A stretch of DNA of 64,000 bases, taken from contig NZ_KB898676.1 of assembly GCF_000377765.1 (NCBI RefSeq), positions 1 through 64,000 on the forward strand, read 5' to 3'. Origin of the DNA: Gracilibacillus lacisalsi DSM 19029. Its GTDB lineage: Bacteria > Bacillota > Bacilli > Bacillales > Amphibacillaceae. The translations under genes were made by a program, and so were the position numbers. How positions within the stretch are numbered: position 1 is the stretch's first letter; each line of letters starts with the position of its first letter. Below are positions 1 to 35,130 of this stretch, piece after piece. Under the pieces are notes generated by a model that saw only the letters and a program-made list of their open reading frames with translations, did no database searches and was not told where the DNA came from.

Positions 1-19
1 CAATCCCTAAGTAGTACAT
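1..19 (-). CDS. IS110-family recombinase, first six codons only (partial)
   Basis: An ATG at 19-17 on the minus strand opens MYYLGI and runs out of the window. IS110 recombinases (RuvC-like DEDD catalytic domain plus a serine-containing Tnp domain) typically begin with a short strand of the form YxGID, where the D is the first catalytic acid; that residue would be the next codon, of which only the G is present. GGTGG lies 7-8 bases upstream of the ATG. Six residues are not enough to prove the family; the call leans on the upstream bridge-RNA-like structure. The enzyme would cut and rejoin the target and donor dinucleotides under RNA guidance. Confidence 0.6.
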
Positions 20-50
20 GTAAACACCACCCGTGTGATAGATTAATCAG

Positions 51-211
51 AAAAGAGGAATCCTCCGCATCTTTATAGCTATCCATCCTCGTTCGATATT
101 CGACAACGTCTGTGTCATCCAGCTGATACGAATCATTCTATAAAGAAGGAGGCATCAGACTTTCCGACGAAGACTAAGCTTCAAGGGAAGTAACGATACC
201 TCCATCTGATT
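51..211 (-). ncRNA. Predicted IS110 bridge (seek) RNA with readable target guides
   Basis: On the minus strand two stem-loops follow a -10 box. Loop 1 (target-binding): stem 203-195 pairs with 156-148 (nine pairs, one G-U that pairs only in the minus-strand RNA); 5' internal-loop strand 191-184 reads ACTTCCCT; upper stem GAAG/CTTC (182-179 with 172-169) closes a six-base loop; 3' loop strand 166-160 reads CGGAAAG; three unpaired bases separate each guide from the stem. Loop 2 (donor-binding): stem 146-138 with 78-70, enclosing candidate guides 129-121 (GTATCAGCT) and 92-88 (ACGAG). A short GAGG/CCTC hairpin with TTTT follows (65-51). This is the two-loop plan known for the IS621 bridge RNA. 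Ends are estimates. Confidence 0.75.
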
Positions 212-217
212 ACCCCC

Positions 218-246
218 ATTATACAATTTCATGGGGATACCTTAAA
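218..246 (-). promoter_or_regulatory. Promoter at the IS left end for bridge RNA/recombinase
   Basis: On the minus strand TATAAT occupies 223-218, preceded directly by TG. Seventeen bases upstream, 246-241 reads TTTAAG, a poor -35. In IS110 elements a strong promoter is often completed only when the ends join in the circular form, so a weak integrated -35 would fit. The start would fall near 211, just before the first stem. Confidence 0.5.
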
Positions 247-269
247 ATTAAGGTTGCCTATATCATACG

Positions 270-395
270 AGGGAAGTGGGCAGCCGAAGTGGCGGTTATG
301 ATCACGATATATGTCAAAATTACTTCATAGGTGACTGTGCGTTTAGTTTCGAACAATCAGTTTTCGCTACTTCGCAGTATGTATCTAATGTGTAT
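270..395. repeat. Dispersed repeat R1, copy 1, truncated by the IS
   Basis: From 271 rightwards the sequence follows copy 2 (15183-15305) and the reverse of copy 3 (34625-34733): GGGAAGTGGGCAGCC, then CAAAATTA, TAGGTGAC and ACTTCGCAGT in the same order with base changes between. The part that precedes GGGAAGTGGG in the other copies is missing, replaced by the IS left end. Between 396 and the ypiA start I see no gene and no convincing promoter. Confidence 0.75.
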
Positions 396-528
396 CTGAT
401 CGATATCGTCCAGGGAAGGACTATGTATATAATTTTTTGATCTTACAAATTGTCTTAGTTGCTCGATTGGATGTTATCCGATAAGATGAATAGTTAGAAG
501 TATACGTTATAAAGAAAGGTTGAAATCA

Positions 529-1800
529 TTGAATACGATTGAACAAGCAATTGAAATGATCCATGCAGGGGAAATAGAAGAAGCTTTATCATTACTTAAT
601 GAAACGGCAATTTCAGCTGATATAGATACGAAGCTTGAGATTTCTCAGATCTTTGTAGAATTAGGAAATCATGATTTAGCACAAGAAGTTTTAGAAGATA
701 TCTTAAACACGGAGCCAGGTAATAGTGAGGCAAAATTATTATTAGCAGATATTATGACTGATGATAATAAAGATGAACAAGCGATTGAACTTCTGAATGA
801 AATACAAGATGGTGATGATAATTTCCTGCAGGCACTAGTGCAGCTTGCAGATTTATATCAGGCACAAGGGCTATTTGAAGTAGCTGAACAAAAGCTGTTG
901 ATAGCTAAAAATATTGCACCAGACGAACCAATCATTGACTTTGCATTAGGTGAATTATTATTTTCTTCAGGAGAATATCATAAATCAATTGTTTATTATG
1001 AAAAACTAAAAAGTAAAACCGAAGAATTTGCTGGTGTTAACATTTCCAGTCGCTTAGCAGAAGCATATGCGTTAAATGGTGAATTTGAATCTTCTCTTCA
1101 TTACTATCAATCATTAGATACTGAAGATCCTGAAACTCTTTTTCGTTATGGTTTTTTAGCTTATAAATCTGAGCGATATGAAATAGCAATTCAGGCTTGG
1201 GAAAAATTATTGGAAGAAGAATTAGAATATCCTTCTGTCTATTTGTATTTAGCGAAGGCATATGAAGAAGAAGGTATGCTTGATGAGGCATATCAAGCGG
1301 GTAATCAAGGGGTAGAAATGGACCCGTTTAATAAAGAAATGTGGTTTACAGCAGGCAGAATCACTTTAAAAACTGGCAACACCGATCAGGCATTTGATTT
1401 AGTGAAAAAAGCGATATCGTTAGATAATGAATACCAGGAAGCACTGTTGTTCCTCGTTGAAGCCTATAAAAAACGGGAAGAATATGGTGAAATTATTCAC
1501 TTATTAACTGAACAGGTTGAGGTTGAACCGTTAGATGGTATTTTTTATTGGGAGCTTGCGAAAGCTTATAATGAGGAAGAAGAGTTTAAACAGGCATTAA
1601 ATGCATACCAAAATGCATACAATAAAATAAAGCAAGATACCGACTTCTTAAAAGATTATGGATATTTTCTAGTAGAAGAAGGGAGGACCAGTTTAGCTCT
1701 AGAAATATTTGAAGAGTATCTGGTTTTAGAGCCATCAGATTTCGATATTCAACAATATGCCGAAAGGCTGAAAGATCAAAATAATGATACTCTCTTTTAA
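529..1800 (+). CDS. ypiA: Tetratricopeptide-repeat protein YpiA
   Basis: A 423-residue soluble protein made almost wholly of TPR-type helix pairs: alternating A/L/Y/G patterns such as LAEAYALNGEFESSLHYY and LAKAYEEEGMLDEAYQAG recur about every 34 residues. Such repeats form a scaffold for protein binding; the partner in B. subtilis is not settled. TTG at 529 is preferred over TTG at 520 because the AGAAAGG ribosome binding site (512-518) would run into the earlier codon and is correctly spaced from the later one. It heads the ypiA-ypiB-ypiF-qcr neighbourhood, as in B. subtilis. aroE, its usual upstream neighbour, is not here; repeat and IS sequence occupies that place. Confidence 0.9.
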   Translation: MNTIEQAIEMIHAGEIEEALSLLNETAISADIDTKLEISQIFVELGNHDLAQEVLEDILNTEPGNSEAKLLLADIMTDDNKDEQAIELLNEIQDGDDNFLQALVQLADLYQAQGLFEVAEQKLLIAKNIAPDEPIIDFALGELLFSSGEYHKSIVYYEKLKSKTEEFAGVNISSRLAEAYALNGEFESSLHYYQSLDTEDPETLFRYGFLAYKSERYEIAIQAWEKLLEEELEYPSVYLYLAKAYEEEGMLDEAYQAGNQGVEMDPFNKEMWFTAGRITLKTGNTDQAFDLVKKAISLDNEYQEALLFLVEAYKKREEYGEIIHLLTEQVEVEPLDGIFYWELAKAYNEEEEFKQALNAYQNAYNKIKQDTDFLKDYGYFLVEEGRTSLALEIFEEYLVLEPSDFDIQQYAERLKDQNNDTLF

Positions 1801-14805: not shown

Positions 14806-15305
14806 TATCCATATACTGCGCAGTAACGAGGAAAAGGAATTGCTCTCTGGTATTCTTCAATTAGAGAGTGCATGCAAACCGCTCCGGCAGAATACTCCGC
14901 TATTGTTGTGCTCTGATTATAGAAAGGATAGAACACATGGAACTAAATCCTTTGAATTTCTTGTCACTTGATCAGAATTGTATACTAAGATGTGGAAAAT
15001 GCGACACTTCCGGAACTACATATGGTGGAGAAATCGATTGGTTGATTTCGGATTAGTGTTGTGGAGAATAGCTTAACGAAGGCCGCCCACTTCCACTCCT
15101 GTGGGACCTGTTTGGCCTGAAGATCCACTTTTTCGAGCGGTTTTTGCTTGAAAATTTAGCTGAAGGGCAAACCCCACGGAAAGGGAAGTGGGCAGCCGAA
15201 GTGGTAGTTATCATCACAATATATTTCAAAATTATCGCTTAGGTGACCGCACATCTAATTACCACATTACTTCGCAGTTTTTATCTAGTGTGAACTATGG
15301 TCAAG
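14806..15305 (+). repeat. Dispersed repeat R1, copy 2 (about 500 bases)
   Basis: Matches the reverse complement of 34625-35215 along its whole length. Landmarks in order are ACTGCGCAGTAACGAGGA, GCATGCAAACCGCTCCGGC, AGAATTGTATACTAAG, a palindromic element (15081-15197), CAAAATTATCGCTTAGGTGA and ACATTACTTCGCAGT. It fills most of the gap between panD and dinG (14742-15382). It contains the intact IS target site on the minus strand at 15189-15177. The short open frames inside it have no ribosome binding sites and are not genes. Confidence 0.85.
15081..15197. repeat. REP-like palindromic element P4 within R1 copy 2
   Basis: Terminal inverted repeats GGCCGCCCACTTCC and GGAAGTGGGCAGCC bound a 117-base element. 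The interior has CTCCTGTGGGAC answered by ACCCCACGGAAA, and CTGAAGATCCACTT, a motif shared with the palindromes at 22.6 and 34.8 kb. Confidence 0.8.
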
Positions 15306-15382
15306 CGAATGTTTATATATTTATTTGTCAGAAGTTGCTAATAATAAATGGAAATGTAATATCAAGTATCGGGGATGATCCT

Positions 15383-18028
15383 TTGCAAAAATTTGTTGTA
15401 ATAGATGTCGAAACTACTGGACAATCCGCATCAAAAGGTGACCGAATAATTGAAATAGCTTTAGTAGTAATCGAAAACAACCAAATTACACAACAGTATA
15501 ATCAACTAGTTAATCCAGAACAACCTATTCCAACCTTTATTTCACAATTAACTTCTATAACGGATGAAGATGTGGAAACACAACCTGTATTCGCTGAAAT
15601 TGTTCCCGAGTTTAAAGGTTTACTGGATAATGCTATTTTAGTGGCACACAATGTACCGTTTGACTTAACTTTTTTAAATGAAGAGCTTGAACGAGTAGGT
15701 GAATTCAAAATTCACCCTTATGTTGTCGATACGGTCGAATTAGCGAGAATTTTATTACCAAAAGCACCTAGCTATAAACTAAATGAATTAGCTGAATATT
15801 TAATGATCAGTCATGCTAATCCACATCGGGCGATATCAGATGCACTGGTAACAGCTGATTTGCTAATTTTACTAATAAACAAATTGCAAAGCTTACCGGA
15901 GAATGTCATCCAGCAAATGTTATCAATATCTCATCCTTTGCGTACAGATTTTGCTAAATTGTGTGAGTCATTAGATCAACAAGCGATTCGCACAGATTTA
16001 GAAGAAATTAGAGGTTTTTCTTTAAAGAAACAAGAAGAAATAAAGGAAGAAGAAGCGTATATTTCGCAAGACTTTTCTACATATTTAGATGAAATATATG
16101 GTGATCATGGCAAACTTGCACAAGTCTATGCCCGATATGAGAAACGAAACGCACAAGTCTTCATTAGTGAGAAGATATATGATCATTTTCGGATGAATGA
16201 ACATGCACTTATTGAAGCGGAAACAGGTGTTGGCAAAACTATTGGATATTTAATTCCGGCTGTTTATGAAGCACTAAATCACCATAATAAAGTAGTGATT
16301 AGTACAACTAATACAAACTTACAGTCTCAATTAATCGATCAAGATTTAGCAAAATTAGATTTACCCATTCGAACAGCTATTATGAAAGGAAAAAGCCATT
16401 ATTTAAGCTTACAAAATTTCGAACAATTCTTTCATGATTCTAATTATCGATCTTATCAGGATATATTGCTAAAAGCGATGATTATCGTCTGGCTTACGGA
16501 AACAACGACAGGTGATTTAGATGAAATACAATTTCCGGTTGAAAAACACCCTGTTTTTAATCAAATTGTTGTCAATAACGAAAAAGCGAATGAGATGTGG
16601 AAGGATTATTGTTTCTATCAAAGAATGATAAAAACAGCAACAGAAGCTTCGATCATAGTCACCAACCATTCTCTGTTAGCAATTGACATGTTAGCAGATA
16701 AGCCGATTCTGCCTGCGTATCAAAGATTAATTATTGATGAAGCACATCAACTGGAACAAATGGCAACCAATTATCTTGGAGATTCTTTAAGCTATTTTGA
16801 ATTAACTCACTTTTATCAACAGTTGGAAAAAAGTGATGTTAAAAGTACAAGTCTTCAACAATCTATAGATACGGTTAAATATGAAACAGATATATTATTC
16901 CGTCAGTTATATCAATATGTCAAAGAACAGAATAAAAAACAGAAAAATGTTACAGATGTAGGGCGTTTAAAAACTGTTTGGAACCATGATAAACCAATAG
17001 AACTTGTTGACAGCGTTTATCGAACAATCATGGTAATCAAAGATTTAGCACAATTGTTCCCAGAAGATATAACGGATGAGAAGGAACAAATCTTACATGT
17101 AGAAGAACTGCTTCGTCAGCTATTGATTGAAGAAAAACAGGAAGCTGTTACATGGCTGGAAATTGATCAACAAGGTGCAGAGAATGCTGTATTTATTCAG
17201 CACGAACCATTTTCAGTTAAGAATACATTACAGTCTTATTTATTTCGGGAAAAGCAATCGATTATATTAATTAGTGCTACTCTAACCATGAACCAATCAT
17301 TCCGATATATAAAAGAAAGACTAGGGCTTAATACGGAGCATACGAAAGAGTATATGGTTGAACATCATTTTGACTATCAGAACCATGTTGAGCTTATGAT
17401 ACCTAACGATCTTCCGGCTATACAATATCCTAATAATGACGACTTTATCTTTGCGATTAATGAAGCGATTATTTCGATTGCCGAGAAGACGAAGGGGAGA
17501 ATGTTAGTACTGTTTACTTCGTATGACATGTTGCGAAAAAGCTACTTTATTTTAAAAGAAACAGATCTGTTAATGGACTATATGATTATTGGACAAGGTG
17601 TTTCGACAGGCAGCAGGAATCGATTAATTAAACAATTTCAAGCATTTGAAAAATCGATTCTTTTAGGTACAAATGCTTATTGGCAGGGCATTGACATTCC
17701 AGGTAATGATTTGTCGTGCTTAATCATTGTGAAGCTACCTTTTCAGTCACCACAAGATCCTGTATATATAAAAAAAGCTGATTATTTTAAATCAAAAGGA
17801 ATGAATCCGTTTATGGAATTAGCTTTACCACAAGCGGTATTGCAATTCAAACAAGGATTTGGCAGATTAATACGGAAAGATACAGATCAGGGTATGATTT
17901 TTGTCTTTGATGAAAGAATCATGACCAAACGGTATGGTAAGACATTTATTCAATCAATACCTGACATTCCTATTCATTATGAAACCATGCAAGACTTACT
18001 AAATCGTGTAAGTAAAAAATGGCTATGA
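15383..18028 (+). CDS. dinG: DinG-family helicase with N-terminal 3'-5' exonuclease domain
   Basis: An 881-residue fusion of a DnaQ-like exonuclease (residues 1-170: DVETTG with D8/E10, AHNVPFDLTFL, HRAISDALVTADLL) and an XPD/DinG superfamily 2 helicase (Walker A with Lys285 in ETGVGKT, DEAH box from Asp452, and C-terminal QGFGRLIRKDTDQG). In Gram-positive bacteria this protein is often reported as an exonuclease rather than an active helicase. TTG 15383 gives the family N-terminus MQKFVVIDVETTG after GGGGATGAT; the longer in-frame reading from 15188 runs into repeat R1. No LexA box was found upstream. Confidence 0.92.
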   Translation: MQKFVVIDVETTGQSASKGDRIIEIALVVIENNQITQQYNQLVNPEQPIPTFISQLTSITDEDVETQPVFAEIVPEFKGLLDNAILVAHNVPFDLTFLNEELERVGEFKIHPYVVDTVELARILLPKAPSYKLNELAEYLMISHANPHRAISDALVTADLLILLINKLQSLPENVIQQMLSISHPLRTDFAKLCESLDQQAIRTDLEEIRGFSLKKQEEIKEEEAYISQDFSTYLDEIYGDHGKLAQVYARYEKRNAQVFISEKIYDHFRMNEHALIEAETGVGKTIGYLIPAVYEALNHHNKVVISTTNTNLQSQLIDQDLAKLDLPIRTAIMKGKSHYLSLQNFEQFFHDSNYRSYQDILLKAMIIVWLTETTTGDLDEIQFPVEKHPVFNQIVVNNEKANEMWKDYCFYQRMIKTATEASIIVTNHSLLAIDMLADKPILPAYQRLIIDEAHQLEQMATNYLGDSLSYFELTHFYQQLEKSDVKSTSLQQSIDTVKYETDILFRQLYQYVKEQNKKQKNVTDVGRLKTVWNHDKPIELVDSVYRTIMVIKDLAQLFPEDITDEKEQILHVEELLRQLLIEEKQEAVTWLEIDQQGAENAVFIQHEPFSVKNTLQSYLFREKQSIILISATLTMNQSFRYIKERLGLNTEHTKEYMVEHHFDYQNHVELMIPNDLPAIQYPNNDDFIFAINEAIISIAEKTKGRMLVLFTSYDMLRKSYFILKETDLLMDYMIIGQGVSTGSRNRLIKQFQAFEKSILLGTNAYWQGIDIPGNDLSCLIIVKLPFQSPQDPVYIKKADYFKSKGMNPFMELALPQAVLQFKQGFGRLIRKDTDQGMIFVFDERIMTKRYGKTFIQSIPDIPIHYETMQDLLNRVSKKWL

Positions 18029-34529: not shown

Positions 34530-34717
34530 CACTTTATAAAAATAAAGAGAAGCTAGAACATAACTAAACCATTCCTAGCTAAAGACGAACGTTGACAAGA
34601 GATCTAACTTATTCAAATGTTGCTTATTTGTTCATAGTAGATACAAACTGCGAAGTAATGTGGTAATGAGATGTGCGGTCACCTAAGCGATAATTTTGAC
34701 ATATATCGTGATGATAA

Positions 34718-34835
34718 GGCTGCCCACTTCCCTTTCCGTGGGGTTTGCCCTTCAGCTAACTTTTTCGAGCCAAAACCGCTCGAAAAAGTGGATCTTCAGG
34801 TCAAACAGTTCCCTCAGGAGTGAAAGTGGGCGGCC
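34718..34835. repeat. REP-like palindromic element P5 within R1 copy 3
   Basis: Ends GGCTGCCCACTTCC and GGAGTGAAAGTGGGCGGCC are inverted repeats; inside, CTTTTTCGAG and CTCGAAAAAG form a hairpin next to GTGGATCTTCAG. It is the counterpart of the element at 15081-15197. Confidence 0.8.
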
Positions 34836-35017
34836 TTCGTTAAATATGCTCCACAACACTAATCCGAAATCAGCCAGTCGATTTCTTCACCATATGTAGT
34901 TTCGGAAGTCGCATTTTCTACAGCTTAGTATACAATTCTGATCAAGTGACAAGAAATTCAAAGAGTTTAGTTCCATGAGTTCTATCCTTCCTATAACTAG
35001 AGAACAAAAATAGCGGA

Positions 35018-35130
35018 GGCAGAATACGGAGACTCCTGTGGGACTAACGAGAGCTTCAGCTAACTTTGCAAAGTGGGTTTCTTTGCAAAGTTAGCTGAAG
35101 CCGAGCCCACGGAAAGCGCAGTATTCTGCC
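35018..35130. repeat. REP-like palindromic element P3, absent from R1 copy 2
   Basis: Terminal inverted repeats GGCAGAATAC / GTATTCTGCC bound 113 bases. The centre is a perfect 20-base inverted repeat starting CTTCAGCTAACTTTG around a seven-base loop. In copy 2 the same place (14886-14895) holds a single GGCAGAATAC with no palindrome. Confidence 0.82.

Follow-up and report, generated by a model that had tools for sequence, protein, structure and literature searches.

On its minus strand, the stretch from 269 to 1 of the window (the whole 64,000 nt of DNA analysed here, which are contig C15 of a 44-contig Gracilibacillus genome of 4.41 Mb) is well supported as the left end (LE) of an IS110-group insertion sequence. 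Almost certainly, this is an autonomous element with a junction-promoted bridge RNA that guides insertion at ACTTCC-CT-TTCCG in a hairpin repeat. A preliminary description of the same DNA had already read the region as an IS110 bridge RNA, and this overall interpretation is supported by guides, flanks, empty sites, RNA covariation and relatives.

The following chain of events can be proposed. In the excised circle, right and left ends would meet and create a promoter (TTGACT-17 bp-TATGAT). From this promoter, a bridge RNA of ~165 nt and then a 396 aa DEDD/serine recombinase would be expressed. The first internal loop of the RNA would pair with both strands of ACTTCC-CT-TTCCG and the second loop with the element's own ends, and the recombinase would join target and donor at the common CT core. 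Because the target is located in a single arm of the dispersed hairpins, the element would spread through intergenic repeats. Transcription, circle formation, cleavage and strand exchange are proposed by analogy with IS621; the guides, flanks, empty sites, covariation in RNA and donor guide, the junction promoter as a sequence and the recombinase family of the relatives have support at the sequence level.

The left end and its copies

All letters and coordinates that had been given for positions 1–277 are correct to the base. The features of the region are as follows:

270–277, minus strand: left flank, ACTTCC (277–272) plus CT core (271–270); ACTTCCCT is found likewise at 6/6 own left ends
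1–269, minus strand: LE of the IS110-group element, beginning with CGTATGATATAGG after the core; six genome copies, relatives with 77–94% identity
148–203, minus strand: predicted target-binding loop of the RNA; folds, two-sided compensatory changes at 5/10 pairs
184–191, minus strand: left target guide ACTTCC-CT, equal to the top strand of left flank and core
160–166, minus strand: right target guide CGGAAAG, reverse complement CT-TTCCG; fits 4/4 own right flanks
71–145, minus strand: predicted RNA stem region; two-sided compensatory changes at 8/9 pairs
118–124, minus strand: probable left donor guide AGCTGGA; its AGCTGG part matches the right-end terminus TAGCTGGT-CT and is invariant on both sides
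88–98, minus strand: predicted right donor guide TATCGAACGAG; its reverse complement CTCGTTCGATA matches the LE terminus CTCGTATGATA at 9/11 bases and co-varies with it between subgroups
2–19, minus strand: recombinase gene, first six codons (MYYLGI), followed by the contig end; homologous to the 396 aa recombinases of relatives

The outer flank ACTTCCCT at 277–270 and the two guides, ACTTCCCT at 191–184 and CGGAAAG at 166–160, were found where they had been reported. The same holds for the nine-pair stem composed of GGAGGTATC (203–195) and GATGCCTCC (156–148), which is three bases away from each guide, and for the GAAG/CTTC upper stem between the guides.

The left end is present six times in the own genome, and every copy is located at a contig edge. 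All six are identical over at least 246 bases from the LE start and are preceded by ACTTCC-CT. The right end was found at the edges of contigs C2, C12 and C15, where the recombinase C-terminus is followed by a spacer, TAGCTGGT and then CT-TTCCG, and a fourth right end is located in contig C3. Left ends (six) and right ends (four) were counted separately and are unpaired copy by copy. The far flank that had been predicted from the right guide, CT-TTCCG, follows 4/4 own right ends, and the proposed comparison of other copies with the guides yielded a match at 6/6 own left ends. Contig breaks at identical copies would be a typical effect of recent multi-copy elements in short-read assemblies.

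The recombinase

An IS110-type recombinase had been expected beyond position 1. Its start, ATG-MYYLGI, is located at 19–2 on the minus strand, and three own contig edges carry its C-terminus with an open, intact reading frame. This means, the own gene can be read at its two ends, and its middle is inferred from these ends and from relatives, in which the expected DEDD recombinase starting with MYYLGI comprises 396 aa if intact. A family search of the readable contigs of the own genome found no IS110 transposase, as these contigs lack the repeated middle part of the element; several short contigs read as N. Full-length relatives of 396 aa are encoded by Gracilibacillus massiliensis (two), Saliterribacillus persicus, Aquibacillus koreensis and Sediminibacillus massiliensis. 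In two relatives that were scanned, PF01548, PF02371 and NF033542 ('IS110 family RNA-guided transposase') were all above cut-off, the latter with a score of 257 bits against a cut-off of 140. Domain scan and IS621 alignment revealed a DEDD RuvC-like domain and a C-terminal Tnp domain with the catalytic serine in the relatives. D7, E60, D102, D105 and S316-G317 are invariant in five relatives and align with the DEDD and serine motifs of IS621, the nearest solved structure, for which excerpts of PMC11208158 describe the residue roles. At one related locus (L169 in genome G019), recombinase and bridge RNA are retained, but unrelated sequence stands in place of the LE terminus; the donor end of this copy has probably been lost.

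The target: a dispersed hairpin repeat

Two uninterrupted repeats had been reported in the window, and ACTTCCCTTTCCG was found exactly at both places, 15177–15189 (minus strand) and 34726–34738 (plus strand). The guides, read as encoding ACTTCC-CT-TTCCG, agree with filled and empty sites at 13/13 bases. The repeats of the window are:

15081–15197, minus strand: uninterrupted imperfect palindrome with the target ACTTCCCTTTCCG at 15189–15177
34716–34837, plus strand: uninterrupted imperfect palindrome with the target at 34726–34738, in a gap between ORFs; DNA fold z −5.4, equalled by 0/200 shuffles
35018–35130, minus strand: partner palindrome of 34716–34837 in the same composite repeat, with the arm CTGCGCTTTCCG, unmatched by the guide

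In the 4.41 Mb genome, the 13-base target was counted 45 times, mostly within dispersed hairpin repeats, and the backwards pattern not at all. With up to three mismatches, the window contains 20 matches versus 12.2 expected, a number reached by 6/100 shuffles; therefore, the weight rests on exact matches only. For CTNCNCTTTCCG, 152 genome sites compare with six for the reversed pattern. Most of the 32 target copies listed have a longer repeat in common around them; L085 and L088, at least, have diverged or are truncated. The hairpin at 34716–34837 comprises ~120 bases. With many dispersed palindromic copies, the repeat is REP-like, its intergenic position being derived from the two copies in the window. 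An ORF (15188–18028, presumably a long helicase-like gene) starts from a GTG at 15188 inside the palindrome 15081–15197, with a few bases' overlap. Its true start lies probably downstream of the annotated one.

The composite repeat, seen in the window at 34716–35130, consists of two opposed hairpins at a distance of ~380 bp; one has a CTTCC arm, the other CTGCG or CTTCG. Among the 100 of 152 own sites listed, all 20 inverted pairs within 600 bp are unequal, with one CTTCC arm and one other. The CTTCC arm was used by 6/6 own insertions and accounts for 41 of the 100 listed arms; if the arms were equal, the chance of this outcome would be ~0.005. That unequal arms shield one arm from insertion was considered and dropped as a general rule: In Gracilibacillus massiliensis Awa-1 (G012), which belongs to the same genus as the window and has the same guide core, 10 double-CTTCC pairs were found among 49 typed rows.

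Bridge RNA, donor guides and circle junction

The long non-coding region upstream of the recombinase gene contains a structured RNA with two loops. Folding of 215–40 (minus strand) as a single sequence yielded −54 kcal/mol with a z of −2.2, and 4/200 shuffles equalled it. This is only moderately better than shuffles, and the evidence from the alignment is much stronger. Seventeen aligned RNAs have a common fold with target loop and donor loop. Two-sided compensatory changes were found at 19/34 pairs and 97.1% of cells are paired, which was reached by 0/500 shuffles, although the count is somewhat favoured by a structure drawn from the same alignment. Sliding of pair partners lowers pairing to 37–52%. 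A search of window positions 1–600 against Rfam at a lax threshold yielded no match.

The first five bases of the LE terminus, core included, recur as their reverse complement within the predicted right donor guide. Both change in concert: CTCGT is found with ACGAG in 18/18 cases, CTAGT with ACTAG in 6/7 and CTCCT with AGGAG in 1/1. In the window, the 9/11 match between this guide and the LE terminus is interrupted by a two-base gap, similar to the discontinuous pairing that excerpts of PMC11208160 report for IS621. The probable left donor guide is beyond such a covariation test, because AGCTGG is identical in the compared elements and invariant on both sides. It is followed by AT instead of the CT core, and the mismatch of the core-proximal bases makes its fit poorer than in IS621.

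When right and left termini are joined, TTGACN, 17 bases and TAnnnT, a pattern of our own choice, appear in 21/22 junctions; the own junction reads TTGACT-17 bp-TATGAT. From its sequence, the circle junction is predicted to form a promoter. Junction promoters are known for the IS110 family (PMC11187229, in excerpt).

Guides and flanks of related elements

The guide test comprised the window's own element and 24 of the 56 loci (L154–L209) obtained by recombinase match. Repeat fetches of the same places (L165–L168, L184, L189), partial or rearranged loci (L164, L169, L173, L179, L180, L191, L193, L202) and more distant ones with loops unmatched by the patterns (L160–L163, L175–L177, L181–L183, L187, L188, L190, L192, L201, L205, L207, L209) were omitted. 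Subgroup labels A, B and C were assigned after the sequences had been seen. In target loops, one guide corresponds to left target plus core and the other to the complement of core plus right target. The left guide agrees with its own flank at 132/175 positions (25 elements, seven non-core positions each), compared with a mean of 68.5 when partners are shuffled across all elements and 94.7 when shuffling stays within subgroups (p 5e-5). For the right guide, 82/105 positions agree (21 elements), compared with 48.3 and 63.9, respectively (p at most 1e-4). From the core outwards, the seven left positions match in 25, 24, 19, 25, 16, 12 and 11 of 25 elements. At two loci of G157, one base of the right guide differs, and so does the flank base opposite (CTTTTGC/CTTTAAC and CTATTGC/CTATTCT).

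Mismatches to guides were also observed. Counted strictly, the left guide fits at 4/7 positions in L154, L157, L159, L172, L174, L208 and L200, and right matches are poor in L194, L159 and L206 (2/5 each) and in L204 (3/5). Copies at sites off their guides had been named beforehand as evidence against the interpretation. The own genome, with 6/6 matching, and most of the 25 elements speak for it; the poor right matches of L159, L194 and L206 speak against it. L195 and L203 share one guide, which fits L203 at 7/7 left and 5/5 right positions and L195 at 6/7 and 3/5. Four copies in G511 (L197, L204, L206 and L208) likewise have one guide, with left matches of 7, 6, 6 and 4 of 7 and right matches of 4, 3, 2 and 5 of 5. 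They are a natural record of mismatch tolerance. In L159, from Rossellomorea aquimaris, the sequence after the right end, CTCGTATATC, is closer to the beginning of the element's own left end than to the target of the right guide. This is possibly an insertion at a donor-like site.

Alternative explanations

A protein might recognise the hairpin of the repeat, as is thought for some REP-targeting elements, so that the likeness between RNA loop and flanks would be incidental. The target is indeed part of a strong DNA hairpin (z −5.4), and recognition of palindromes by protein has been suggested in other IS families that target REP sequences (PMC1525189, in excerpt). However, relatives with targets other than this repeat still fit their guides (L196 and L203 with 7/7 and 5/5 each, L199 with 6/7 and 5/5), and the confinement of all six own insertions to the CTTCC arm argues in the same direction. 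We regard this explanation as very improbable. Equally improbable is the assumption that the matching sequences are an immobile fossil, i.e. a degenerate element end amplified within the repeat. It would account for the failure to find a transposase in the readable contigs of the own genome, but it is at odds with left ends identical over at least 246 bases at six distinct places, with an open and intact recombinase C-terminus at three contig edges and with intact full-length relatives in other genera. The breaks at identical copies, too, would fit a recent multi-copy element in a short-read assembly.

Least probable of all is a match of the guides due to chance or shared ancestry alone. Relatives do share repeat-like targets, and mispairing within subgroups already attains 94.7/175 on the left side. 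Nevertheless, within-subgroup shuffles reached the observed left score in 0/20,000 cases and the right score in 1/20,000, and guide, filled sites and empty sites agree exactly over 13 bases. An RNA-guided IS110-group element is clearly preferred over all three.

Relation to known elements

The bridge-RNA mechanism was described in 2024. That the IS110/IS621 mechanism is known, as the preliminary description stated, agrees with excerpts of PMC11208160, PMC11208158 and PMC11187229, which report bridge RNAs, dual guides containing a CT core, junction promoters and the targeting of REP sequences by IS621. Several IS110 elements that target REP sequences were on record as early as 2006 (PMC1525189, in excerpt). 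Neither bridge RNAs nor the targeting of REP sequences by IS110 elements is new, and no further mechanism is added here.

According to the excerpts of PMC11208160 and PMC11208158, IS621 from Escherichia coli shares with the window element a bridge RNA in the LE, a target loop followed by a donor loop, a CT core in the guides, a DEDD and serine recombinase and insertion into REP sequences. Its chain has 328 residues versus 396 aa in the relatives of the window element. Its target is different, the repeats of the window being those of Gracilibacillus and not enterobacterial REP sequences, and its left donor guide is followed by CT, in contrast to that of the window element. ISPa11, ISPpu9, ISPpu10 and ISRm19, from the IS1111 group or other IS110 elements, are likewise IS110-family elements at REP sequences in the excerpt of PMC1525189. 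ISPa11 is treated in PMC11187229 (in excerpt) as a member of the IS1111 group with the non-coding region downstream of the gene, whereas that of the window element is upstream. For the same reason, membership of the window element in the IS1111 group was rejected; a repeat search in window positions 1–700 found no inverted repeats. ISEc21 with its seekRNA, as presented in the excerpt of PMC11187229, is similar in the upstream non-coding region, in the guide order with the bottom-strand match first and in the circle-junction promoter. It differs in its target and belongs to a transposase cluster of 345–385 aa, while the window element fits the 395–455 aa subgroup distinguished in the same paper.

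Literature searches, with ISfinder outside their scope, found no report of IS110 in Gracilibacillus. Searches for bridge RNA together with repetitive extragenic palindromic sequences in Bacillus, for REP-like repeats in Bacillaceae and for repeats or insertion sequences in Gracilibacillus found nothing related.

Guides and host repeat variants

The guides differ between hosts: CTTCC-CT-TTCCG is found in two Gracilibacillus genomes, ACTCG-CT-TTCCG in Sediminibacillus and CTGCG-CT-TTCCG in G170. The repeat form CTTCCCTTTCCG, which fits the guides of the own genome and G012, occurs 59 times in the former, 107 times in the latter, 12 times in G016 and at most twice in seven others. ACTCGCTTTCCG fits the G049 guide and the G031 flank, and is present in 75 copies in G049, 10 in G031 and at most four in eight others. 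CTGCGCTTTCCG, which fits the guide of G170, was counted 44 times there, 41 times in the own genome, seven times in G016 and at most once in seven others. By these counts, three guide variants match repeat variants enriched in their own hosts, with exceptions, and this is new here. A stricter claim, that each guide corresponds to the host's commonest repeat variant, was not borne out: CTYCGCTTTCC outnumbers CTGCGCTTTCCG in G170 (73 versus 44) and ACTCGCTTTCCG in G049 (97 versus 75), and the own genome holds 41 copies of CTGCGCTTTCCG, the CTGCG form, which is unfit for its own guide.

It is conceivable, though we put it somewhat below an even chance, that the guides of this lineage keep being retargeted as the hairpin repeats of the hosts drift, so that each element is aimed at a variant enriched in its host. 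Saliterribacillus (G051), where the tested repeat forms are scarce (7, 2, 0 and 0), and G062, where they are near control (16 versus 8), are exceptions to this reading. Natural reprogramming is mentioned in the excerpt of PMC11187229.

The element of the window is a clean natural case from a Gram-positive group: a single genome combines a guide with filled sites and dozens of empty sites that all agree. Because the different guides of related elements across several genera match different repeat variants of their hosts, these elements provide a comparative set for the evolution of guide retargeting. The host-tracking pattern of the guides deserves a proper test. If true, the retargeting reading would mean that guides evolve naturally along with a genomic repeat and that this can be followed at the sequence level.
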